Below, piece after piece: positions 5,261 through 15,292 of a DNA stretch of 59,751 nt (positions are counted from its first letter, which is position 1; the number at the start of each line of letters is the position of its first letter). The position numbers and the translations under genes were made by a program. The DNA comes from Erysipelotrichaceae bacterium NK3D112 (GTDB lineage Bacteria > Bacillota_I > Bacilli_A > Erysipelotrichales > Erysipelotrichaceae). The stretch covers positions 1 through 59,751 of the forward strand of contig JNJQ01000017.1 of the NCBI GenBank assembly GCA_000701725.1. Direction: 5' to 3'. Below the pieces are notes generated by a model that worked only from the letters and a program-made list of their open reading frames with translations, was not told where the DNA came from and made no database searches.

Positions 5261-5809
5261 ATGGGACTGTTTGAAAAAGAAAAACAAAAAAAGCAGCTGT
5301 ACCGCAAAAAAGACGGGAAATATGAATACATCGGCAATCTGCGCAGACACACCGGTTCAGACGCTGAACTGAAAAAGACAAAGCTCATCCTGTGGCTGTG
5401 TGCCGCACCGGCCCTGGTCTGTGCCATTGCCTCCGGCTGTATACCTGCTACCGGAATGGTGGACAATCTGTTTGTGCTGATTCCGTTTGCGGTGGGGCTG
5501 TGTGTTCTTCTGTTTCTATGCGCAAGGCTTGCCGAGTTCACTCTGAGCGGCAGCGAGATCTGCGAAGATCTGTATGAGAAATGCGTTCCTCCATTCGGCG
5601 CACAGACAACGGTGATTGAAATCGCCGCATTCATCACGGCCGCAGCCGAAATCATCCGCTTCTTTGTGTCTTCCGGAACTGTTTCACTCAGCAGCACCCT
5701 GATTGTTGCGGGCCTGCAGCTGATGACGGCGGGACTTTGCGTGATATTTGCCCGAAAGGTCAGCGGAATGGATTTTGAGCTGGTTCACGGTTCAGCCGTG
5801 TCAAACTGA
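5261..5809 (+). CDS. Small four-helix membrane protein, unknown function
   Basis: A 182-residue protein that I do not recognise. The cytoplasmic N-terminus is very basic (KEKQKKQLYRKKDGKYEYIG), followed by four predicted membrane helices at roughly residues 38-60, 70-93, 115-135 and 142-165, with only short loops. The ATG at 5261 has GGGAG eight bases upstream; an upstream in-frame start exists but would run into the tRNA-Ser flank. It appears to be a single gene with its own weak terminator. No partner gene nearby suggests a role. Confidence 0.7.
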   Translation: MGLFEKEKQKKQLYRKKDGKYEYIGNLRRHTGSDAELKKTKLILWLCAAPALVCAIASGCIPATGMVDNLFVLIPFAVGLCVLLFLCARLAEFTLSGSEICEDLYEKCVPPFGAQTTVIEIAAFITAAAEIIRFFVSSGTVSLSSTLIVAGLQLMTAGLCVIFARKVSGMDFELVHGSAVSN

Positions 5810-5888
5810 CACGGTAACAGCTTAAATCTCATCAATCTTAATAAATATGAAACAGTTGTCTTCAGATCATGAAATGACGGCGCAAAGG

Positions 5889-5925
5889 GCAGGGGAAGCC
5901 GGAAAGGGATGCTCCTGCTTTTTCC
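5889..5925 (+). terminator. Putative terminator after the small membrane protein gene
   Basis: GCAGGGG (5889-5895) pairs with CTCCTGC (5912-5918) with one G-U pair and is followed by TTTTTCC. Confidence 0.5.
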
Positions 5926-6216
5926 TTGCGGCAGATGAAATCAGAACGTTCAGTGAAAAGCAATGCCGGACACGCCGCCGAAAATAAGGCAGGTGACGTA
6001 AAAAAATGCAGATAATCAAAGACTTTTTTGAACTGCATCATAAAAGAAAGGAAGACGGAATGTTTCAGAACATGCAGGAAACAGACCGGCGGCCGGGAAG
6101 TTTCGCCTGAAACAGCCGGATATTTGACTTATGAAAATACGAGAAAGTATTTACATCATCGGTTGAAAATTTACACATTTCTTGGAAGAAAGGGCCTTGT
6201 AAAAAAGCGTGTATCA
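5926..6216. other. Gene-poor leader upstream of oppA
   Basis: About 290 bases between a terminator and the oppA promoter without a convincing gene. One possible micro-ORF of 34 codons (ATG at 6006, stop at 6108-6110; MQIIKDFFELHHKRK...) has a poor AGGTGA ribosome site. The stretch is more A+T-rich than neighbouring genes. I see no riboswitch consensus or long repeat. Confidence 0.3.
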
Positions 6217-6245
6217 TTGACAGTGTGTATGAGAAATAATAAAAT
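6217..6245 (+). promoter_or_regulatory. Strong sigma-A promoter of oppA
   Basis: Perfect -35 TTGACA (6217-6222), 17-base spacer, -10 TAAAAT (6240-6245). Together with the near-ideal AGGAGGGAAAG ribosome binding site it predicts high expression of the binding protein. Confidence 0.8.
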
Positions 6246-6302
6246 ACCTTGTATAAATGCATCGATTTAATGCATTGATGTATTGCTTAGGAGGGAAAGA
6301 AA

Positions 6303-8243
6303 ATGAGCAATTCAAGAAAGTGGTTAGCTGGTGTTCTTGCTCTTGCAATGCTTGCAGGATGCTCAGGCAGCGGCGAAGCTTCAGGCAACACTGATTCCGA
6401 AGGCTCTGGCGAACCGAAAGTCGGCGGCCAGATCATCTACGGAAGCACAACCGAACTGTCCGGTGACCTTGGTAATGCTTGGTGGACAAACAACGCTTCA
6501 GACGCTATGGTTCGTCAGCTGATTGATGACTACGGAACAGTCACAACAGACCAGGGCGGCGAACTCGTCGAAAACGCTACAACATGCGCAGGTATCGAAT
6601 CTGTCGCAAACGATGACGGCACAAAGACATTCACAGTCAAGATCAAGGAAGGCCTGACATTCAACAACGGCGATCCGATCACAGCTGCTAACTATGTCGC
6701 TTATGCACTCGTTGCTTACTCCGCACAGAACAAGGAAGCTGGCGCAAAAGTTTCCTCTGACCAGGTTGTCGGCGCCAAGGAATACCAGAACGGCGAGACA
6801 AACAAACTGTCCGGTGTCAGACTGATTGACGATTACACATATGCAATCTCCATCACATCTGACTATGTTCCTTATTACTTCGAAGAGAGCTATGCTTCTC
6901 TGTCCCCGATTTCCATGAAGCTCTATGCTCCGAGCCAGGCAGACATCAAGGTTGCTGACGACGGCGACGGCGCTTACTTCGCAGATGGTGAAATCACAGC
7001 AGCTGAACTCGACGCTTCCCGTTATGTATATGCTGACAGAATCTCTGCGGGCCCTTACACACTGAAGGAATTCGACCAGGCAGCTCTCACAGCTACACTC
7101 GAAATCAACCCGAACTACGGTGGAAACTTCGAAGGCCAGAAGCCTCATGTTGAAAAGATCATCGTTGTCAAGGCTGAAGATGAAACACAGATTGACGCTC
7201 TGAAGACAGGCGCAATCGACTTCCTCTCTGCCATCACAGGCGGTGCTCAGGTTAACGCAGCTCTCGACCTCGTTGAAGCTGGTGGATTCTCTGAAGTACA
7301 CTATGACCGTAACGGTTATGGTAAGCTGATGTTCCAGTGCGACTTCGGTCCGACACAGTTCAAGGAAGTCCGTCATGCAGTTGCTTACCTGCTCGACAGA
7401 AATGAATTCGCTAACCAGTTCTGCGAAGGTTACGGTTCAGTCGTTCACGGTCCTTACGGAATCGCTTCCTGGATGTACAATGACTCCAAAGAACAGCTTG
7501 CTGAAAAGCTCGAAACATATGACTACAGCCTTGATAAGGCAGTCGAAGTCCTCAAGGAAGGCGGCTGGGTTTACAATGCTGACGGCACAGACTATGTAGA
7601 CGGTTCCGGCCTTGTCCGTTACAAGGAAGTTACAGACGAAGAAGCTAAGGTTGCTGAAGGCAAAGACTATACAGGTGTTGTTGAAGTCGGCGGCAAGAAG
7701 CTGATGCCTCTCCACATTGAATGGTCCTCTTCTGAAGGCAACTCCGTATCCGAACTCCTCGCTGTCATGCTCGCTAACGGCGAACAGACAAAGCAGGCCG
7801 GTATGGAAATCAACCAGAACGTTATGTCCTTCGACGACCTTCTGAACTACATGTACCGTGATGCAACTCAGGGTGAACAGTATGGTGTCAAGACATATGG
7901 CATGTACAACCTCGCTACAAACTTCACAGCTCTCTATGACCAGTCCTACCAGTTCACAATGGATCCGGATCTGGTAGCTCAGGGATGGAACACCAACTTC
8001 ACAGATGATGAAAAGCTCGACAAGCTCTCCATGGATATGGTTTATGGTGTTGAAGCTGGCGACGACGCAACATATCTGCAGACTTGGGTAGACTTCATCG
8101 ATGAATGGAATGACTACCTCCCTGAAGTTCCGCTGTATTCCAACGTTTATTACGACATTATGAATTCCAAGATCAAGAACCTCGAATGCAACTCACTGTT
8201 TGACTTCTATCAGGCAGTTGTCTATGCATATATTGAGGAATAA
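6303..8243 (+). CDS. oppA: Oligopeptide ABC transporter, substrate-binding lipoprotein
   Basis: Captures peptides (or a similar solute) outside the membrane and delivers them to the OppBC permease. The 646-residue protein starts with a lipoprotein signal (about 1-20) ending in lipobox LAGC, so Cys20 is the lipidated residue. A Gly/Ser/Glu-rich linker follows, then a family 5 extracellular solute-binding domain (about 38-640). At over 640 residues it is longer than typical OppA (about 540), with acidic insertions around residues 215-240. Its codons (GCT, ACA, GGC) differ from neighbours and resemble highly expressed genes. First gene of the operon, separated from oppB by a hairpin. Substrate specificity cannot be read from sequence. 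Confidence 0.9.
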   Translation: MSNSRKWLAGVLALAMLAGCSGSGEASGNTDSEGSGEPKVGGQIIYGSTTELSGDLGNAWWTNNASDAMVRQLIDDYGTVTTDQGGELVENATTCAGIESVANDDGTKTFTVKIKEGLTFNNGDPITAANYVAYALVAYSAQNKEAGAKVSSDQVVGAKEYQNGETNKLSGVRLIDDYTYAISITSDYVPYYFEESYASLSPISMKLYAPSQADIKVADDGDGAYFADGEITAAELDASRYVYADRISAGPYTLKEFDQAALTATLEINPNYGGNFEGQKPHVEKIIVVKAEDETQIDALKTGAIDFLSAITGGAQVNAALDLVEAGGFSEVHYDRNGYGKLMFQCDFGPTQFKEVRHAVAYLLDRNEFANQFCEGYGSVVHGPYGIASWMYNDSKEQLAEKLETYDYSLDKAVEVLKEGGWVYNADGTDYVDGSGLVRYKEVTDEEAKVAEGKDYTGVVEVGGKKLMPLHIEWSSSEGNSVSELLAVMLANGEQTKQAGMEINQNVMSFDDLLNYMYRDATQGEQYGVKTYGMYNLATNFTALYDQSYQFTMDPDLVAQGWNTNFTDDEKLDKLSMDMVYGVEAGDDATYLQTWVDFIDEWNDYLPEVPLYSNVYYDIMNSKIKNLECNSLFDFYQAVVYAYIEE

Positions 8244-8283
8244 TCTTAGATTCTGATTCATAATAAATAACCAGAGGCATGCA

Positions 8284-8324
8284 ACCAGCAGAGTGCATAA
8301 CAAAGCAGTGTACTCTGCTGGTTT
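8284..8324 (+). terminator. Intercistronic hairpin between oppA and oppB
   Basis: ACCAGCAGAGT (8284-8294) pairs perfectly with ACTCTGCTGGT (8312-8322), followed by a short interrupted T-run (TTTCTATGATTT). The weak T-run suggests partial termination or an RNase barrier. Either would give more binding protein than permease. Confidence 0.65.
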
Positions 8325-8429
8325 CTATGATTTATAGAGATTTTGAATCTTATTATCAGCATAAAAGCAGAAGATCAGCTTCGGCTCTTATGCGGGTAAT
8401 AAGTTCATATAAAGAGAGGGGGAGCCACC

Positions 8430-9446
8430 TTGAAAAAGTATATTATTAAAAGAATTCTCTACATGGTGATTGTCTTCTTTATTGTTTCTTTTCTGATGTA
8501 TTTCCTGTTTAACCTGATCCCTAGTGATCCTGCCCGTAATCAGCTTGAAGCAATGAAGACCTCACTGAAGCCTGAACAGTATCAGCAAATGTACCAGCAG
8601 CTTCGTCTGGAGATGGGTCTTGATGATCCGATCATTCTCCGCTACGCACGCTGGATGGGCCTGATGCCGACCGTCAAGAACGGATTCAACGGTCTGCTCC
8701 AGGGCAATCTCGGCTATTCGCTGTACTTCAAGAAGAACATCATTGAAGTCGTTGTTGCACCGATGAAGACAACGATCTTCCTGAACATCTTCTCGACCAT
8801 TCTTGCACTTGGAATCACAATTCCGCTTGGAATTTACTGTGCGGTTCATAAGGGCAGCAAGATTGACAACTTCACGATGGTCTTCACAATCATCGGTTAC
8901 AGTATTCCTGTCTACATCATTGCCCTTGTGTTCATCTTCCTGTTCGCGGTCATTCTGAGATGGTTCCCGGTCAGCGGCATGGGTACACCCGGTGCCAATT
9001 ACACAGGCTTGAGAAAAATGCTCGATATGCTGTATTATTTCGCACTCCCGCTGATTGTTATCACATTCGGCTCCCTGGGCGGAATGACACGTTATGTCCG
9101 TGCTGCCATGATCGATGCGCTGAGCATGGATCATATCAAGACCGCACGTGCGAAGGGTGTCAAGGAAAAGACAGTCATTTACTCCCATGCTTGGAGAAAT
9201 GCGCTGCTTCCTGTCATTACACTGATTATCGGCTGGTTCCTCGGTATCTTCTCAGGTTCAGTTATTATTGAAAACACATTCAGTATCAACGGTATGGGTT
9301 CCCTCTATATCAAAGCGCTCAACAGCCATGACTATGACCTGGCTCTGGCAATGCAGATGTTCTACTGCGTGGTCAGCCTTGTAGGCGCTCTGATCATGGA
9401 CCTCAGCTACAGCTTTGTCGATCCGCGTGTACGTGTGGATAAGTAA
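8430..9446 (+). CDS. oppB: Oligopeptide ABC transporter, permease OppB
   Basis: Inner-membrane half of the peptide channel. The 338 residues form six predicted membrane helices: one N-terminal, then five after a long extracytoplasmic segment (about residues 35-100). The conserved EAA coupling loop is near residues 225-250 (DHIKTARAKGVKEKTVIYSHAWRNALLP). The start codon is TTG at 8430, chosen because GAGGGGGAG lies six bases upstream and the first residues (MKKYIIKRILYMV) match the family. It pairs with the modified OppC encoded 17 bases downstream. Confidence 0.92.
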   Translation: MKKYIIKRILYMVIVFFIVSFLMYFLFNLIPSDPARNQLEAMKTSLKPEQYQQMYQQLRLEMGLDDPIILRYARWMGLMPTVKNGFNGLLQGNLGYSLYFKKNIIEVVVAPMKTTIFLNIFSTILALGITIPLGIYCAVHKGSKIDNFTMVFTIIGYSIPVYIIALVFIFLFAVILRWFPVSGMGTPGANYTGLRKMLDMLYYFALPLIVITFGSLGGMTRYVRAAMIDALSMDHIKTARAKGVKEKTVIYSHAWRNALLPVITLIIGWFLGIFSGSVIIENTFSINGMGSLYIKALNSHDYDLALAMQMFYCVVSLVGALIMDLSYSFVDPRVRVDK

Positions 9447-9463
9447 GAAGGGAGATTATAGTT

Positions 9464-11296
9464 ATGTCTGAAAAGAAAAAGAAAAACTCACTTCTTGCAA
9501 GGCTGTTCGGCAACCGCAACAAAGAAGTGGATGTCATGGTCGAGGAACAGATCCAGTCTCCCGGAAAGATGATGCTGGACAACTTCCTGCACAACAGACT
9601 CGGTATGACCGGTCTGATTGTCTTCATCCTGATCTTCATCTTTGTAAGCGTCGGCCCGCATTTCGTTGAACTTGATCTCGGTGCTGCCGACAACACACAG
9701 CTCAACGTTCCTCCGACAACAACAATGATGTCCATTCCGAAGCAGATGAAGAACAAGGTTCAGGCGATTGCGTCCGGCCCGACCTTCGGTATCGGATGCG
9801 ACACAGACGGCAACGTCTATGTCTGGGGACATACAAAGATTACAGAAACTCTGGATATCAAAAAGATTCCGGAAGAAGTCAAGAAGGCGAAGATCATTGA
9901 TGTCGCGGCAGGTTATGACCATGTCGTTGCACTCGATGACAAAAACAAGGTCTACGTCTGGGGCAACACCAGACTCGGTCAGGACAGAATTCCCGATGAG
10001 CTGGCAGGCACAAGCAGAATTAACAAGGCCGGCAAGGTTATTCAGCTTGAAGCCGGCTATCAGATCAGCGGCGTTGTGACAGAAGACGGCGAAGCTTACT
10101 TCTGGGGCAACTCCAACATGGCTGATATTGATGTCAAATCCGAGTACCAGGGACGCATCAAGAAAATCGCAATTTCGACTTATAACTACTGCCTGCTTCT
10201 GGATGACGGCTCCGTCGCTTACGGCGGTCTGAAGACCGGCAATCCGTTTGCAAATATTCCGTCCAGCCTCTCCAGCGGTGTTGTCGATATCGCGGCAAGC
10301 GGCGAAACAATGGCTGCGGTTGATCAGAATGGTAAGATCACAATCTGGGGCAGCGGAACTCACGGCGAGAGAAATGTTCCGGAATTTGAATCCAAGCCTG
10401 TTGAAATCTACGGCGGACGCTATCACTACACAGCTCTGATGGACAACAACGATGTCATCTCATGGGGCGACAACTCCCATGGTCAGGCTGATGTGCCGGA
10501 TTCCGTCAACAACGGCGATATCGCTACTGTATTCTCCGGTTTCTATCAGAACTATGCTGTTACAACAACAGGCGAAGTTGAGACATGGGGACTGAAAGGT
10601 CATCCGCTCGGAACAGATGACATGGGCCGTGATATTCTGACAAGAATTATCCATGGCGGTAAGACAACAATGACCGTCGGTGCGATTGCGGAAATTATTG
10701 CTCTCATCATCGGTGTTGTTCTCGGTGCGATTGCCGGCTATTTCGGCGGCAAGACCGACCTGATCATCATGCGTATCACCGAAGTTATCGGTGCGCTGCC
10801 GTTCCTTCCGTTTGCACTTCTGCTCTCAGCGATCATCGGTGCCCGAATCGATGTTCAGCTGCGTATGTATCTGATCATGGTGGTGCTCGGCCTCTTAAGC
10901 TGGACCGGTATCTGCCGTCTGATCCGTGCCCAGATTCTCGCGGAACGTGAAAAGGAATTCGTCCTTGCTGCCCAGGCAATGGGTGTCAAGGAAAGCAGCA
11001 TTATTTTCAAGCATATCCTTCCCAACGTCATGTCCATCCTGCTCGTTGAGGCAACCCTCGGTTTTGCGACATGTATGCTGACTGAGTCATCACTCAGCTA
11101 CCTCGGATTCGGTATTACTCCGCCTACACCCACTTGGGGAAATATGCTGACCGGCGCGAACAACTCGGTTGTCATTCAGCAGTACTGGTGGCGCTGGGTA
11201 TTCCCGGCTGCGATCTTCGGTGTCTGCACCATCTGCATCAACCTGATGGGTGATGCGATCCGTGAAGCGGTTGACCCGAAATCACTTGGTAGATAA
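9464..11296 (+). CDS. oppC: OppC-type permease with an inserted RCC1-like beta-propeller
   Basis: Second half of the peptide channel, 610 residues instead of the usual 300 or so. The first helix (about 47-64) and a short linker are followed by about 280 residues (97-378) made of seven RCC1-type repeats. Each has the pattern hydrophobic-xxAxGxxxxxAxxxxGxVxxWG. The tandem WG/GG positions lie near 121, 166, 214, 253, 295, 334 and 375. Normal OppC sequence resumes at HPLGTDDMGRD (380-390). Five more helices and the EAA loop (EKEFVLAAQAMGVKE, 496-510) complete the permease. Topology places the propeller outside the membrane, where OppA docks. The frame is unbroken and codon use is uniform, so this is a true domain insertion. 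Function of the propeller is unknown. Confidence 0.93.
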   Translation: MSEKKKKNSLLARLFGNRNKEVDVMVEEQIQSPGKMMLDNFLHNRLGMTGLIVFILIFIFVSVGPHFVELDLGAADNTQLNVPPTTTMMSIPKQMKNKVQAIASGPTFGIGCDTDGNVYVWGHTKITETLDIKKIPEEVKKAKIIDVAAGYDHVVALDDKNKVYVWGNTRLGQDRIPDELAGTSRINKAGKVIQLEAGYQISGVVTEDGEAYFWGNSNMADIDVKSEYQGRIKKIAISTYNYCLLLDDGSVAYGGLKTGNPFANIPSSLSSGVVDIAASGETMAAVDQNGKITIWGSGTHGERNVPEFESKPVEIYGGRYHYTALMDNNDVISWGDNSHGQADVPDSVNNGDIATVFSGFYQNYAVTTTGEVETWGLKGHPLGTDDMGRDILTRIIHGGKTTMTVGAIAEIIALIIGVVLGAIAGYFGGKTDLIIMRITEVIGALPFLPFALLLSAIIGARIDVQLRMYLIMVVLGLLSWTGICRLIRAQILAEREKEFVLAAQAMGVKESSIIFKHILPNVMSILLVEATLGFATCMLTESSLSYLGFGITPPTPTWGNMLTGANNSVVIQQYWWRWVFPAAIFGVCTICINLMGDAIREAVDPKSLGR

Positions 11297-11308
11297 AGGA
11301 GGACTATT

Positions 11309-12304
11309 ATGGCATTGCTTGAAGTTAAAAATCTGCATACCTACTTTACAACCAAGAAAGGTATTGTTAAGGCCGTCAATGACGTTGACTATTCAGTAGA
11401 CGAAGGCAAGACTCTCGGTATCGTCGGTGAGTCCGGATCGGGCAAGAGCGTATCCGCGATGTCCATTCTGCAGCTGCTTGACGCCAACGGTTATATTGAA
11501 AGCGGTGAGATCATCTTCGAAGGCGAGGACCTGACAAAGAAATCACTGCAGGAAATGTACAAGATCCGCGGAAACAAGATTTCCGTTATCTTCCAGGAAC
11601 CGATGACTTCCCTGAACCCCGTGTTCACGGTTGAGAAACAGGTTGCTGAAACATTCATCATCCACCAGGGCATGTCCAAGAAGGAAGCGGCTAAGAAGGT
11701 CGTTGAAATCCTCGCGGACGTCAAGATCCCGAATCCGGAGATCGTCGCGAAGCAGTATCCTCATCAGCTTTCAGGCGGTATGAGACAGCGTGTCATGATC
11801 GCCATGGCACTGGCTTGCCGTCCCAAGCTTCTGATCGCCGATGAGCCGACAACAGCGCTTGACGTTACCATCCAGGCTCAGATCCTGAAGCTGATGAATG
11901 ATCTGAAGAAAGAACTCGGAACATCCATTCTGTTCATCACCCATGACCTTGGTGTCATCAACCAGATGGCTGATGATGTTGCGGTTATGTATTGCGGACA
12001 GGTCGTCGAAATGTCACCCAGACGCACCATCTTCTCCAATCCGGAATATATGCATCCGTATACAGAAGGTCTGTTCCGCTCCATCCCGAGACTTGATTCC
12101 GATGCGAATGAGCGTCTGGAATCCATTCCGGGTGCGGTGCCTCATCCGCTGAACCTTCCGAAAGGCTGCAAGTTTGCTCCCAGATGCAAATATGCGACCG
12201 AGAAGTGCCAGAACGAGGAGCCTGATCTTGTTCAGGTAAATGAAACACAGCAGATCCGCTGCTTCTATCCTAGAAGGGAGGACCGTCATGTCACAGCCGA
12301 ATAA
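11309..12304 (+). CDS. oppD: Oligopeptide ABC transporter, ATPase OppD
   Basis: Cytoplasmic ATPase that, with OppF, powers peptide import. Normal length, 331 residues. Walker A GESGSGKS at 40-47, Q-loop in [10 protein letters not shown], signature LSGGMRQR near 153, Walker [13 protein letters not shown] near 175, H-loop in FITHDLG. The C-terminal oligopeptide/dipeptide domain carries the conserved cysteine cluster ([14 protein letters not shown] and a later CF), which in relatives can hold an iron-sulfur cluster. The ATG follows AAAGGAGG; the 3' end overlaps oppF by 17 bases, indicating translational coupling. Confidence 0.94.
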
Positions 12305-13832
12305 GAATGTTCTGTTGAAGATCACAAACCTTAAGCAGTACTTCCCGCTTAAGAAAAAGGGTGAATTCGTCAAAGCGAATGACGGTATCACACTGAATAT
12401 CTACGAAGGCGAAGTCTTCGGTCTCGTCGGTGAGTCAGGATGCGGAAAGTCCACATTCGGACGTACCATTCTGCAGCTCTACCGTCAGACAGACGGTCAG
12501 ACAATGTACTACGGCAAGAAGCTCGATGATATCGCTCCGAAGTACATGCTCGAAACAATCAAGGACCTTGACAAGCGCAAGGCTCTGATCAAATCAACAG
12601 CTGAAAAGAGAGACGCTCTGCAGGCTGAATACGAAAAGCTTTCCGAAACAGAACAGTACGCAAAGCATGCTGAACTGGAAGCTGCCAAGAAAGAAGCGCA
12701 TGACGCTCTGCAGGATGTGACAAACATCATCGGCGGACTTGTGACACTGGATGATCTCGGTCCCGTCAAGAGCGCATTCGAAAAGAAATATGAGATTGCT
12801 CTCAAGCGCAGACAGCTCAACGAAAAGCTTTCCGAAATAACCGCAAAGCGTGAAGACGCTGAATTCAAGAACAAGAATCTCAGCAGCTACGACAGCAAGA
12901 TCAGTGAATACAAGTCACAGCTCGAAAAGCTCGATGCTGAGCTTGAAGAAGCCAACCGGAATATTGAGAAGCTGCGTGAGCCGTATCTCAGCAATCCGGA
13001 ATTCAAGGAATATGATCAGTATTATACAGACGGCATCGACCTTGCCCGTCTGGAATACAATGAAATCAGAATCCTCAGACAGGATCTGCAGATCATCTTC
13101 CAGGACCCGTATTCATCACTGAACCCGCGTTTCACAATCGGTCAGATTATCGGTGAAGGTCTGACAGCGCATAACATCTTCTCCGGCAACAGCCCGAGAA
13201 TGCAGGATTATATTCTGAGCGTCATGAATGACTGCGGTCTTGCGCCTTACTTCCTGCACCGTTTCCCGCACCAGTTCTCAGGCGGTCAGAGACAGCGTAT
13301 CTCCATCGCCCGCGCACTGGCTGTCAAGCCGAAGTTCGTGGTCTGCGACGAAGCCGTATCCGCGCTGGACGTTTCCATCCAGTCCCAGATCATCAACCTT
13401 CTGCAGGACCTTAGAGAAAAGCAGGATCTGACATATCTGTTCATTACCCACGACCTTTCCGTCGTCAAGTATATTTCCGACAGAATCGGCGTTATGTATC
13501 TTGGCAACATGGTTGAGCTTGCTTCTTCCGCAGATCTGTTCAAGAAGCCGATCCATCCTTATACACAGGCTCTGATCGCGGCGATCCCGACAACCGATCC
13601 GGACGCTGACAAGGAACTGAAAATCCTTGAAGGCGACATTCCTTCACCGGTCAATCCGCCGAAGGGATGCAAGTTCCACACAAGATGCCGTTACTGCACA
13701 GAAATCTGCAAGCAGGTTGTTCCTTCATGGGATGAGGTTGAGCCGAATCATTTCGTTGCCTGCCACCATCCGCTGATGAATGGTCTTGACATTGAGGAAC
13801 ACCATACTCAGCAGGCAGAGAACAAGGAGTAA
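12288..13832 (+). CDS. oppF: Oligopeptide ABC transporter, ATPase OppF with coiled-coil insertion
   Basis: Second transporter ATPase, 514 residues against roughly 310-330 for typical OppF. Walker A GESGCGKST is at 48-56. The Q-loop (FQDPYSSLNP) appears only near 271-280, because about 175 residues (84-258) are inserted between them. The insert is rich in Glu, Lys, Leu and Ala with heptad-like spacing and should form antiparallel coiled coils, much as in SMC/Rad50-like ATPases but shorter. Signature FSGGQRQR, Walker B VVCDEAVSALD and the C-terminal cysteine cluster are normal. The ATG at 12288 follows AGAAGGGAGG; an upstream in-frame ATG at 12240 has no ribosome site. Confidence 0.92.
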   Translation: MSQPNKNVLLKITNLKQYFPLKKKGEFVKANDGITLNIYEGEVFGLVGESGCGKSTFGRTILQLYRQTDGQTMYYGKKLDDIAPKYMLETIKDLDKRKALIKSTAEKRDALQAEYEKLSETEQYAKHAELEAAKKEAHDALQDVTNIIGGLVTLDDLGPVKSAFEKKYEIALKRRQLNEKLSEITAKREDAEFKNKNLSSYDSKISEYKSQLEKLDAELEEANRNIEKLREPYLSNPEFKEYDQYYTDGIDLARLEYNEIRILRQDLQIIFQDPYSSLNPRFTIGQIIGEGLTAHNIFSGNSPRMQDYILSVMNDCGLAPYFLHRFPHQFSGGQRQRISIARALAVKPKFVVCDEAVSALDVSIQSQIINLLQDLREKQDLTYLFITHDLSVVKYISDRIGVMYLGNMVELASSADLFKKPIHPYTQALIAAIPTTDPDADKELKILEGDIPSPVNPPKGCKFHTRCRYCTEICKQVVPSWDEVEPNHFVACHHPLMNGLDIEEHHTQQAENKE

Positions 13833-13834
13833 AC

Positions 13835-14068
13835 GTGCTTTTCCAGGATAAAGTTGAGCGGGCTCTTGATTACCAGCATGAGCAGGCGGCTGACATTTAT
13901 GAGGAATACAACGGCGAAAAGCTCTATGAGCCGACGCTTGAGGATATGATCGATAAAAAGGACATGTTTGCCCTGATCGTATCCGCCTGGCTTACGATCA
14001 TGCCGATTGCCCTGATCGTGCTGCTGGCGATTGTATTTATCGCAATGCTGTTTTTCCGAGTACTCTGA
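13835..14068 (+). CDS. Small single-helix membrane protein at the end of the opp operon
   Basis: A 77-residue protein starting at GTG 13835, two bases after the oppF stop and behind AAGGAG. The first 45 residues are hydrophilic and acidic (DIYEEYNGEKLYEPTLEDMID), followed by one long helix (about 48-74), so it would be an N-in tail-anchored protein. I do not recognise a family. Close coupling to oppF and the strong terminator behind it make it a real operon member, possibly an accessory or regulator of the transporter (inference). Confidence 0.7.
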   Translation: MLFQDKVERALDYQHEQAADIYEEYNGEKLYEPTLEDMIDKKDMFALIVSAWLTIMPIALIVLLAIVFIAMLFFRVL

Positions 14069-14089
14069 TCCGTTATCCAAAGAATCACT

Positions 14090-14130
14090 CAAAGTGTGAA
14101 CCGTATCATACGGTTTGCACTTTTTGTTTT
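14090..14130 (+). terminator. Terminator of the opp operon
   Basis: A 15-base stem (AAAGTGTGAACCGTA with TACGGTTTGCACTTT, two wobble pairs) with a three-base loop and a TTTTTGTTTTT tail ends the operon. Confidence 0.85.
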
Positions 14131-14236
14131 TGCGGCGCTGACAGTATATGCATGAAAGTATCCGGAAAAGTCATGCGCATGCAAAGACATCATGCGGTAT
14201 TTGTCATATGATAGAGTGCATACAAGGAGTGATGTT

Positions 14237-15292
14237 ATGGAAACAATTGAAAGAATCAAAGCACTTTCCGATGCCTTCGGCCCGTCCGGATTTGAGGATG
14301 ATGTTGCGGCAATTGTAAGGAACGAACTCGAAGAGTACGAAACCTATACAGATCATATGACCAATGTGCGCTGCGAAAAGGAGCCCGGCTCTGACAAGCC
14401 GAATGTCATGCTGGATGCGCATATGGATGAGGTGGGAGCCATCGTTCAGGCGATCAAGCCCAACGGCACGATCCGCTTCCTTCCGCTTGGCGGCTGGAGC
14501 AGAATGTGCTTTCCTTCCAGTCCGTTCCTGATCCGAAGCAGAGACGGCAAAGATATTCCGGCAGTCATTGCGGTCAAGCCTCCGCACTTCATGAAAGCAT
14601 CCGAAAAGAATGCCGTTCCCGAAGTTGCGGACATGGTCATGGATGTCGGCGCCACTAGCGCGGAAGAAGTGAAGGCGCTTGGCATTGGCATCGGTTCTCC
14701 CTGTGTGCCGGACGTGAAGTGCCGCTTTGATGAGGAGAGGGGACTCTTCTATGGCAAGGCCTTTGATGACCGCATCGGCGTGGCATGCACGATTGAGGTT
14801 CTCAAACGGCTCAAAGAGGAAGAGGTTCCATGCAATGTGCAGGCAAGCTTCTCTGTGCAGGAGGAAGTCGGCGAGCGCGGTGTGCGCTCCAATGCGGAAG
14901 CGCTCAAACCTTCCGTCATGATCTGCTATGAGGGATGTCCCGCGGATGACACATTCAGCGAGGATTACATGATCCAGGCAGGTCTTGGCAGAGGACCGAT
15001 GCTCAGACACATGGATGTTTCCATGATCACCAACTGGCGCTTCCAGAAGCTCGCTCTCGATCTTGCGCGTGAAAAGGGCATTCCCGTTCAGGAGTCCGTG
15101 CGCAGCGGCGGCGGCACAAACGGCGCGATGGTCAACCAGTCATACGGTGTTCCGGCAATTGTCATTGGCGTTCCGGTGAGATACATTCATTCCTCAAACT
15201 GCTGGTGCAGGCTGGATGATTTCGAAAATGCGGTCCAGCTCGGCGTCGAATTGTGCAGAATCCTTGATAACAGCGCTGTTTCGAAGCTTTAA
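14237..15292 (+). CDS. M42 family metallo-aminopeptidase (glutamyl aminopeptidase/FrvX-like)
   Basis: Cytoplasmic dinuclear metal peptidase that trims peptides, 351 residues. Metal and catalytic motifs are visible: AHMDE near residues 67-71, the bridging Asp in FDDRIG near 180, the catalytic Glu pair in QEEVGERG near 212, and a late His in IHSSN near 317. The start ATG at 14237 follows AAGGAGTGATG; the in-frame ATG 45 bases upstream lacks a ribosome site. Its place after the peptide importer fits a role in breaking down imported peptides, though a terminator separates them. Confidence 0.88.
   Translation: METIERIKALSDAFGPSGFEDDVAAIVRNELEEYETYTDHMTNVRCEKEPGSDKPNVMLDAHMDEVGAIVQAIKPNGTIRFLPLGGWSRMCFPSSPFLIRSRDGKDIPAVIAVKPPHFMKASEKNAVPEVADMVMDVGATSAEEVKALGIGIGSPCVPDVKCRFDEERGLFYGKAFDDRIGVACTIEVLKRLKEEEVPCNVQASFSVQEEVGERGVRSNAEALKPSVMICYEGCPADDTFSEDYMIQAGLGRGPMLRHMDVSMITNWRFQKLALDLAREKGIPVQESVRSGGGTNGAMVNQSYGVPAIVIGVPVRYIHSSNCWCRLDDFENAVQLGVELCRILDNSAVSKL

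Follow-up and report, generated by a model that had tools for sequence, protein, structure and literature searches.

What might a large propeller domain, predicted in the outer loop of a permease subunit, do for an oligopeptide importer? Peptide importers are standard textbook material, and the way in which their binding proteins locate and retain the permease is a matter of continuing debate. The question is raised here by a 59,751-nucleotide stretch of DNA from Erysipelotrichaceae bacterium NK3D112 (the window), in which an earlier note had read an OppC-type subunit with an RCC1-like propeller inserted between its first helix and the conserved GTDDMGRD segment.

The operon and the inserts in OppC and OppF

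Positions 6303-13832 of the window hold a five-gene operon in the order oppA-oppB-oppC-oppD-oppF, with all genes on the plus strand. By Pfam and locus comparison the oppABCDF gene set, with its SBP_bac_5 lipoprotein, is complete, and as judged from sequence the system is a complete oligopeptide ABC importer, OppABCDF. Two further OppC genes in the same genome are both ordinary, and no Rfam elements were found in 5600-14300. The features of the operon are as follows.

6217-6245, plus strand: promoter-like site TTGACA-17-TAAAAT, 5' of oppA (consensus scan, 11/12 matches)
6303-8243, plus strand: oppA, SBP_bac_5 lipoprotein of 646 aa with lipobox LAGC (Pfam SBP_bac_5, 5.6e-36; Cys20 conserved)
8430-9446, plus strand: oppB, permease retaining a scoop-type TM1-TM2 segment (BPD_transp_1, 2.2e-39; conservation)
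9464-11296 (coding 9464-11293), plus strand: oppC with predicted propeller, 610 aa (ORF, Pfam, AlphaFold2)
11309-12304, plus strand: oppD, ATPase with conserved Fe-S cluster Cys ligands (Pfam, conservation)
about 12288-13832, plus strand: oppF, ATPase with helical insert (Pfam, AlphaFold2)
12534-13022, plus strand: OppF insert, with four long helices lying between Walker A and Q-loop (AlphaFold2, pLDDT about 95 over most of it)
14091-14123, plus strand: terminator-like hairpin 3' of oppF (15-bp stem and T tract)

The cysteines for a [4Fe-4S] cluster are C287, C293, C300 and C318 in OppD and C462, C468, C475 and C493 in OppF (515-aa numbering), and their spacing in the two C-termini closely matches that of DppD and DppF (PMC12136057).

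The OppC encoded here is 610 residues long, whereas E. coli OppC and DppC have about 300. Its frame is intact, as had been proposed, with the ORF at 9464-11296 open throughout. Pfam places OppC_N at residues 32-84, followed by RCC1 repeats and then by BPD_transp_1 at 417-606, and all three families score above their cut-offs (for RCC1_2, E 1.3e-33 and 114 bits against a cut-off of 22). The best NCBIfam model, Opp4C, reaches 306.6 bits, below its 350-bit equivalog cut-off, and aligns with the TMD part at 376-606 only. In a sequence search of the PDB, residues 375-607 match OppC/DppC, and the middle of the protein matches BLIP-II and RCC1 proteins. The parts of OppC are listed below.

9596-9664, plus strand: TM1, residues 45-67 (AlphaFold2 helix)
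9665-9754, plus strand: linker from TM1 to the propeller, residues 68-97, with invariant P84 and P92 (AlphaFold2, conservation)
9755-10594, plus strand: predicted RCC1/BLIP-II-type seven-bladed propeller, residues 98-377 (Pfam, AlphaFold2, Foldseek, VIA-align)
9758-9829, plus strand: blade 1 (AlphaFold2 strands)
9893-9964, plus strand: blade 2, invariant D152 and H153, then R170 and Q173 (AlphaFold2, conservation)
10037-10108, plus strand: blade 3, invariant Q200, then N216 and D221 (AlphaFold2, conservation)
10157-10222, plus strand: blade 4 (AlphaFold2)
10280-10351, plus strand: blade 5 (AlphaFold2)
10397-10468, plus strand: blade 6, R319 and H321 (AlphaFold2, conservation)
10520-10588, plus strand: blade 7, Q362, N363 and Y364 (AlphaFold2, conservation)
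10595-11293, plus strand: GTDDMGRD segment and remaining TMD, residues 378-610 (BPD_transp_1; DppC fold)

AlphaFold2, run on OppC with an alignment of 25 homologues, gives pLDDT values of about 78-96, mostly 88-95, for the blocks spanning residues 98-377, and resolves seven strand triplets at 99-122, 144-167, 192-215, 232-253, 273-296, 312-335 and 353-375. The mean over the whole model is 76.8 and the membrane part is less certain, for which reason the placing of the propeller relative to the TMD in the model is left uninterpreted. The top structure match of the propeller in Foldseek and VIA-align is BLIP-II (3qi0_A, Z 31.1 over 261 residues at 2.3 A), followed in VIA-align by UVR8 (Z 27.6), HERC2 (Z 26.5) and other RCC1 domains; the permease part matches DppC/OppC chains at Z 17-19 (DppC 8z1y_B, Z 19.0). 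A viral structure library yielded nothing beyond generic viral and phage proteins of the RCC1 type. The middle of OppC is thus modelled as a seven-bladed propeller of the RCC1/BLIP-II type, and AlphaFold2 and VIA-align agree with the earlier note on a closed ring, set into an OppC that is otherwise normal, after TM1 and ahead of the GTDxxGRD segment. The limits given there, 97-378, are right to within one or two residues, and the 280-residue domain sits in the TM1-TM2 loop on the extracytoplasmic side, where the note had placed it (AlphaFold2, DppC fold match). One point of the note needs correction: RCC1 propellers had been described as usually intracellular modules, but the nearest structural relative is the secreted BLIP-II, making an extracellular protein-binding role natural for this propeller lineage.

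A second insert, absent from the earlier note, adds about 160 residues to an otherwise normal OppF. The distance from Walker A to the Q-loop is about 211 aa here, where most Opp ATPases of the ordinary kind have about 40-48. Short automatic spacing values at L064, L065, L071 and L082 were judged false, since OppF has at least 524 aa at these loci and the insert itself may contain the motif, and the value for L017 came from an upstream paralogue. Almost all propeller systems also have the OppF insert. In the second operon of L165, however, the propeller occurs without it, and L173, L176 and L179 have the OppF insert without the propeller, so that by sequence comparison the two are separable.

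Occurrence and origin of the propeller OppC

A scan of one genome per species over 84,980 species returned at least 80 loci at 51-99% identity. Among the matches listed, 73 of 80 loci carry the whole OppC architecture in one frame, well above what chance would give, and the remaining seven are truncated at contig ends or stop early. Repeats encoded as a separate gene and joined to oppC by assembly error, the case that the earlier note had set against itself, were not what these loci presented, and an assembly error or fusion artefact is rejected on the 73 single-frame loci inside oppABCDF operons. By record title the 80 listed loci are all from Bacillota except L065, labelled Petrimonas, which is probably a binning mix-up because, gene for gene, it shows the same identities as L064; a cultured carrier among them is Hungatella effluvii DSM 24995 (L051). 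At loci with enough flank the gene order is A-B-C-D-F, with A-B-C-F-D in some divergent relatives, and oppA adjoins the permease genes at every such propeller locus. No plasmid record covers 80% of the query in a search for plasmid spread of the whole architecture.

In the window's phylum the propeller OppC was counted in 17 of 392 genomes (a manual count that includes elaborated and reduced forms), and in 9 of 299 genomes of the phylum to which G392 belongs, G392 being the genome that carries L051. The distribution is patchy, as three other sampled genomes of the window's genus are without it. Judged by these matches, the propeller OppC is widespread in many gut and environmental Bacillota.

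For the question of origin, a tree was made from the TMD part only of 70 OppC sequences, with the propeller columns left out. All 37 propeller-bearing rows form one clade with support 100/93, and the trait requires one change, a value as low as which was found in none of 500 shuffles. The nearest rows outside the clade, L145 and L146 (loci L170 and L171), are without the propeller. Vertical inheritance within one clade, which the note had named as support for a functional insertion, fits the retention of the insert in all 37 sampled propeller OppCs, and one insertion in a Bacillota ancestor followed by inheritance explains them all; repeated independent insertions are unsupported by this tree. 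By sequence comparison the propeller is co-inherited with the four other Opp subunits. Codon use is also as uniform as first reported, with a codon likelihood of -0.877 for the propeller (GC 0.51) versus -0.82 to -1.01 for neighbouring genes. A recent foreign insertion is rejected on this uniform codon use, the single ancient origin, and the correlation of propeller and TMD distances (r 0.94).

Several relatives depart from the common form. In L169 (6342-9788) OppC has 1149 aa, its propeller region being split by several segments that include a likely coiled coil, and OppF (718 aa) and OppA (823 aa) are enlarged as well. The 760-aa OppC of L180, like that of L169 a member of the propeller clade, has extra segments in the propeller region. 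Also within the clade, L104 (5710-7362) encodes a reduced, fast-evolving propeller OppC of 551 aa beside a short OppD of 259 aa, with no OppF in the fetched stretch. An OppC paralogue at L135 (1495-3021) carries a different segment of about 200 residues in the same TM1-TM2 loop, and the loop would appear to tolerate domains of different kinds. An N-terminal helix-turn-helix is combined with RCC1 repeats in proteins at L105, L106 and, in the window's own genome, L003 (721-2835, contig C17), where a hydrophobic segment lies between the two parts; these proteins are unrelated to Opp and are possibly one-component envelope sensors.

The conserved face and the candidate roles of the propeller

Comparison of close pairs gives the propeller a dN/dS of 0.04-0.22, against 0.01-0.06 in the TMD, indicating that the propeller is maintained under purifying selection. 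The TMD is the more conserved part over 88 sequences (entropy 1.04 versus 1.93), and the mean distance is 0.99 for the propeller versus 0.43 for the permease part. Within the core family, 18 polar or Tyr positions of the propeller are at least 93% conserved, and there are blade-specific invariants across the 73 core sequences; D152, Q200 and Q362/N363 are blade-specific, and hence not generic scaffold. When positions are split by loop assignment, with strand ends approximated, 12 of the 18 map to the A-B loops or to residues directly following strand C, whereas the opposite face has two (Fisher p 0.011). Counting against the docking reading given below, RCC1 repeats in general show partial conservation of the A-B loop. 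Outside Gly, Pro and Trp, entropy is 1.90 in the BC loops versus 1.23 in the A-B loops.

The orientation of this face can be approached from chain topology rather than from coordinates. In a three-stranded blade the exit of the chain is at the end of strand C, on the A-B side. The N-terminal linker seems to take the same route as the connections between blades, so both linkers should leave from the A-B/strand-C face. The distance from W375-G376 to the membrane segment GTDDMGRD is only some seven residues, and the conserved face is therefore expected to be turned towards the membrane, and with it towards the permease and a docked OppA.

The simplest reading, and the one tentatively preferred here, is that the propeller may serve as a tethered docking or cap domain for OppA. 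The propeller would lie at the outer surface, next to the OppB/OppC entrance or above it, with its conserved face (A-B loops, strand-C ends, linker side) pointing back to the permease and gripping the lipoprotein OppA. Such a grip could keep OppA near the permease, or help to seal the outward-open cavity during peptide release; in function, the propeller would correspond to MalF-P2, the domain in contact with MalE. The fold, the single origin, the adjoining oppA, purifying selection, the linker-face residues and their blade-specific members support this reading, as do the distances of propeller, OppA, OppB and TMD, which correlate at 0.92-0.97 over 71 systems, and the nearest fold relative, BLIP-II, as a tight binder of proteins outside the cell; the reading has precedent in the capping of DppB/DppC by DppA and in the MalF-P2 contact. 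Against it, OppB keeps its own scoop segment, so that docking or sealing may already be provided. Distance-matrix coevolution gave no choice of partner, because propeller distances correlate with those of every subunit, and the partial correlation of propeller with OppA (0.26) does not exceed that with OppB, TMD or OppF. Of the roles raised in the earlier note, we infer that a receptor or lid for the binding protein is the best functional reading.

The variable face away from the linkers, with its higher BC-loop entropy, is what would be expected of a diversifying outer surface, and would suit a propeller that acts as an outward receptor or anchor for a surface protein, the cell wall, a protease, or a molecule of host or dietary origin, holding the importer near a source of peptides. 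RCC1/BLIP-II propellers bind proteins, BLIP-II is secreted (PMC6121496) and the fold matches; large further insertions in the propeller region of relatives (L169, L180) point the same way. This role is nevertheless rather unlikely, as the conserved residues sit on the membrane-side face, and no fixed extra neighbour gene was seen, with systematic scoring covering Opp genes. It is unlikely, too, that a fixed complex is formed in which the propeller holds OppA permanently outside and the OppF insert regulates or tethers the motor inside; if so, the system would represent a distinct class of peptide importer, without a freely exchanging binding protein.

The ring of invariant polar residues (D152, H153, R170, Q200, R319, H321, Q362, N363) could instead bind substrate, with the loop ring or central channel acting as a filter or a second site of peptide capture. 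The nearest system without a propeller offers some analogy, in that its OppA (L170:1342-3990) has two Ig-like domains before the binding domain, and the outer parts of the importer evidently vary. However, every operon with sufficient flank encodes OppA, which by itself already binds substrate, and no bacterial peptide-binding RCC1 propeller was found in the literature searched, making this role quite improbable. Most doubtful is a spacer or shield without a specific partner, stabilising OppC or guarding the permease mouth, for although divergence is faster in the propeller than in the permease part, by both mean distance and dN/dS, the blade-specific residues of the propeller, invariant in 73 core sequences, exceed what a spacer needs.

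Relation to known importers and propellers

RCC1 is paired with OppC or a peptide permease nowhere in the papers searched, which lay outside subscription journals and database architecture pages, and the earlier note, which likewise knew of no description of such a propeller in a peptide ABC permease, is borne out within that literature. The four-helix insert of OppF is likewise undescribed in the papers searched. The component families are known and their combination in one importer appears new to this literature, although sequence databases may list the domain order automatically. The system is real and represents a widespread variant, of single origin, of a known importer; its function is putative but testable, and a large, conserved and removable outer domain in a natural variant would open docking directly to experiment. 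It also provides a case of a domain inserted once into a permease loop, together with a membrane-anchored relative of BLIP-II, which is among the tightest protein binders known.

OppABCDF and DppABCDF (E. coli 8z21 and 8z1v-8z1z; M. tuberculosis OppABCD and DppABCD) have the same peptide-importer subunits, and share with the present system the OppC_N and BPD_transp_1 fold, the Fe-S cysteines of OppD and OppF, and the scoop-type segment of OppB, whereas the solved structures are without the 280-residue OppC propeller and the helical insert of OppF. In DppABCDF, DppA caps DppB and DppC, the scoop motif in the TM1-TM2 region of DppB enters the DppA cleft, and the TM1-TM2 regions differ between DppB and DppC (PMC12136057). 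RCC1, UVR8 and the HERC2 RLD have RCC1 repeats in common with the propeller (Z 20-28), but are eukaryotic, mostly intracellular and longer (about 360-400 residues). BLIP-II (beta-lactamase inhibitory protein II; 1jtd, 3qhy, 3qi0) is closer (Z 31, 26% identity), being extracellular and built of seven blades with only three strands each, and it is a tight extracellular protein binder (PMC6121496); yet it is a soluble secreted inhibitor, whereas the propeller here is part of a membrane protein, and the likeness is one of fold only. In the maltose importer, the extra MalF domain P2 (residues 91-271) contacts MalE (PMC3150292), and is likewise an extra extracytoplasmic domain in a permease loop. 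It is a different domain for which no homology is claimed, and a contact of the OppC propeller with the binding protein is putative.
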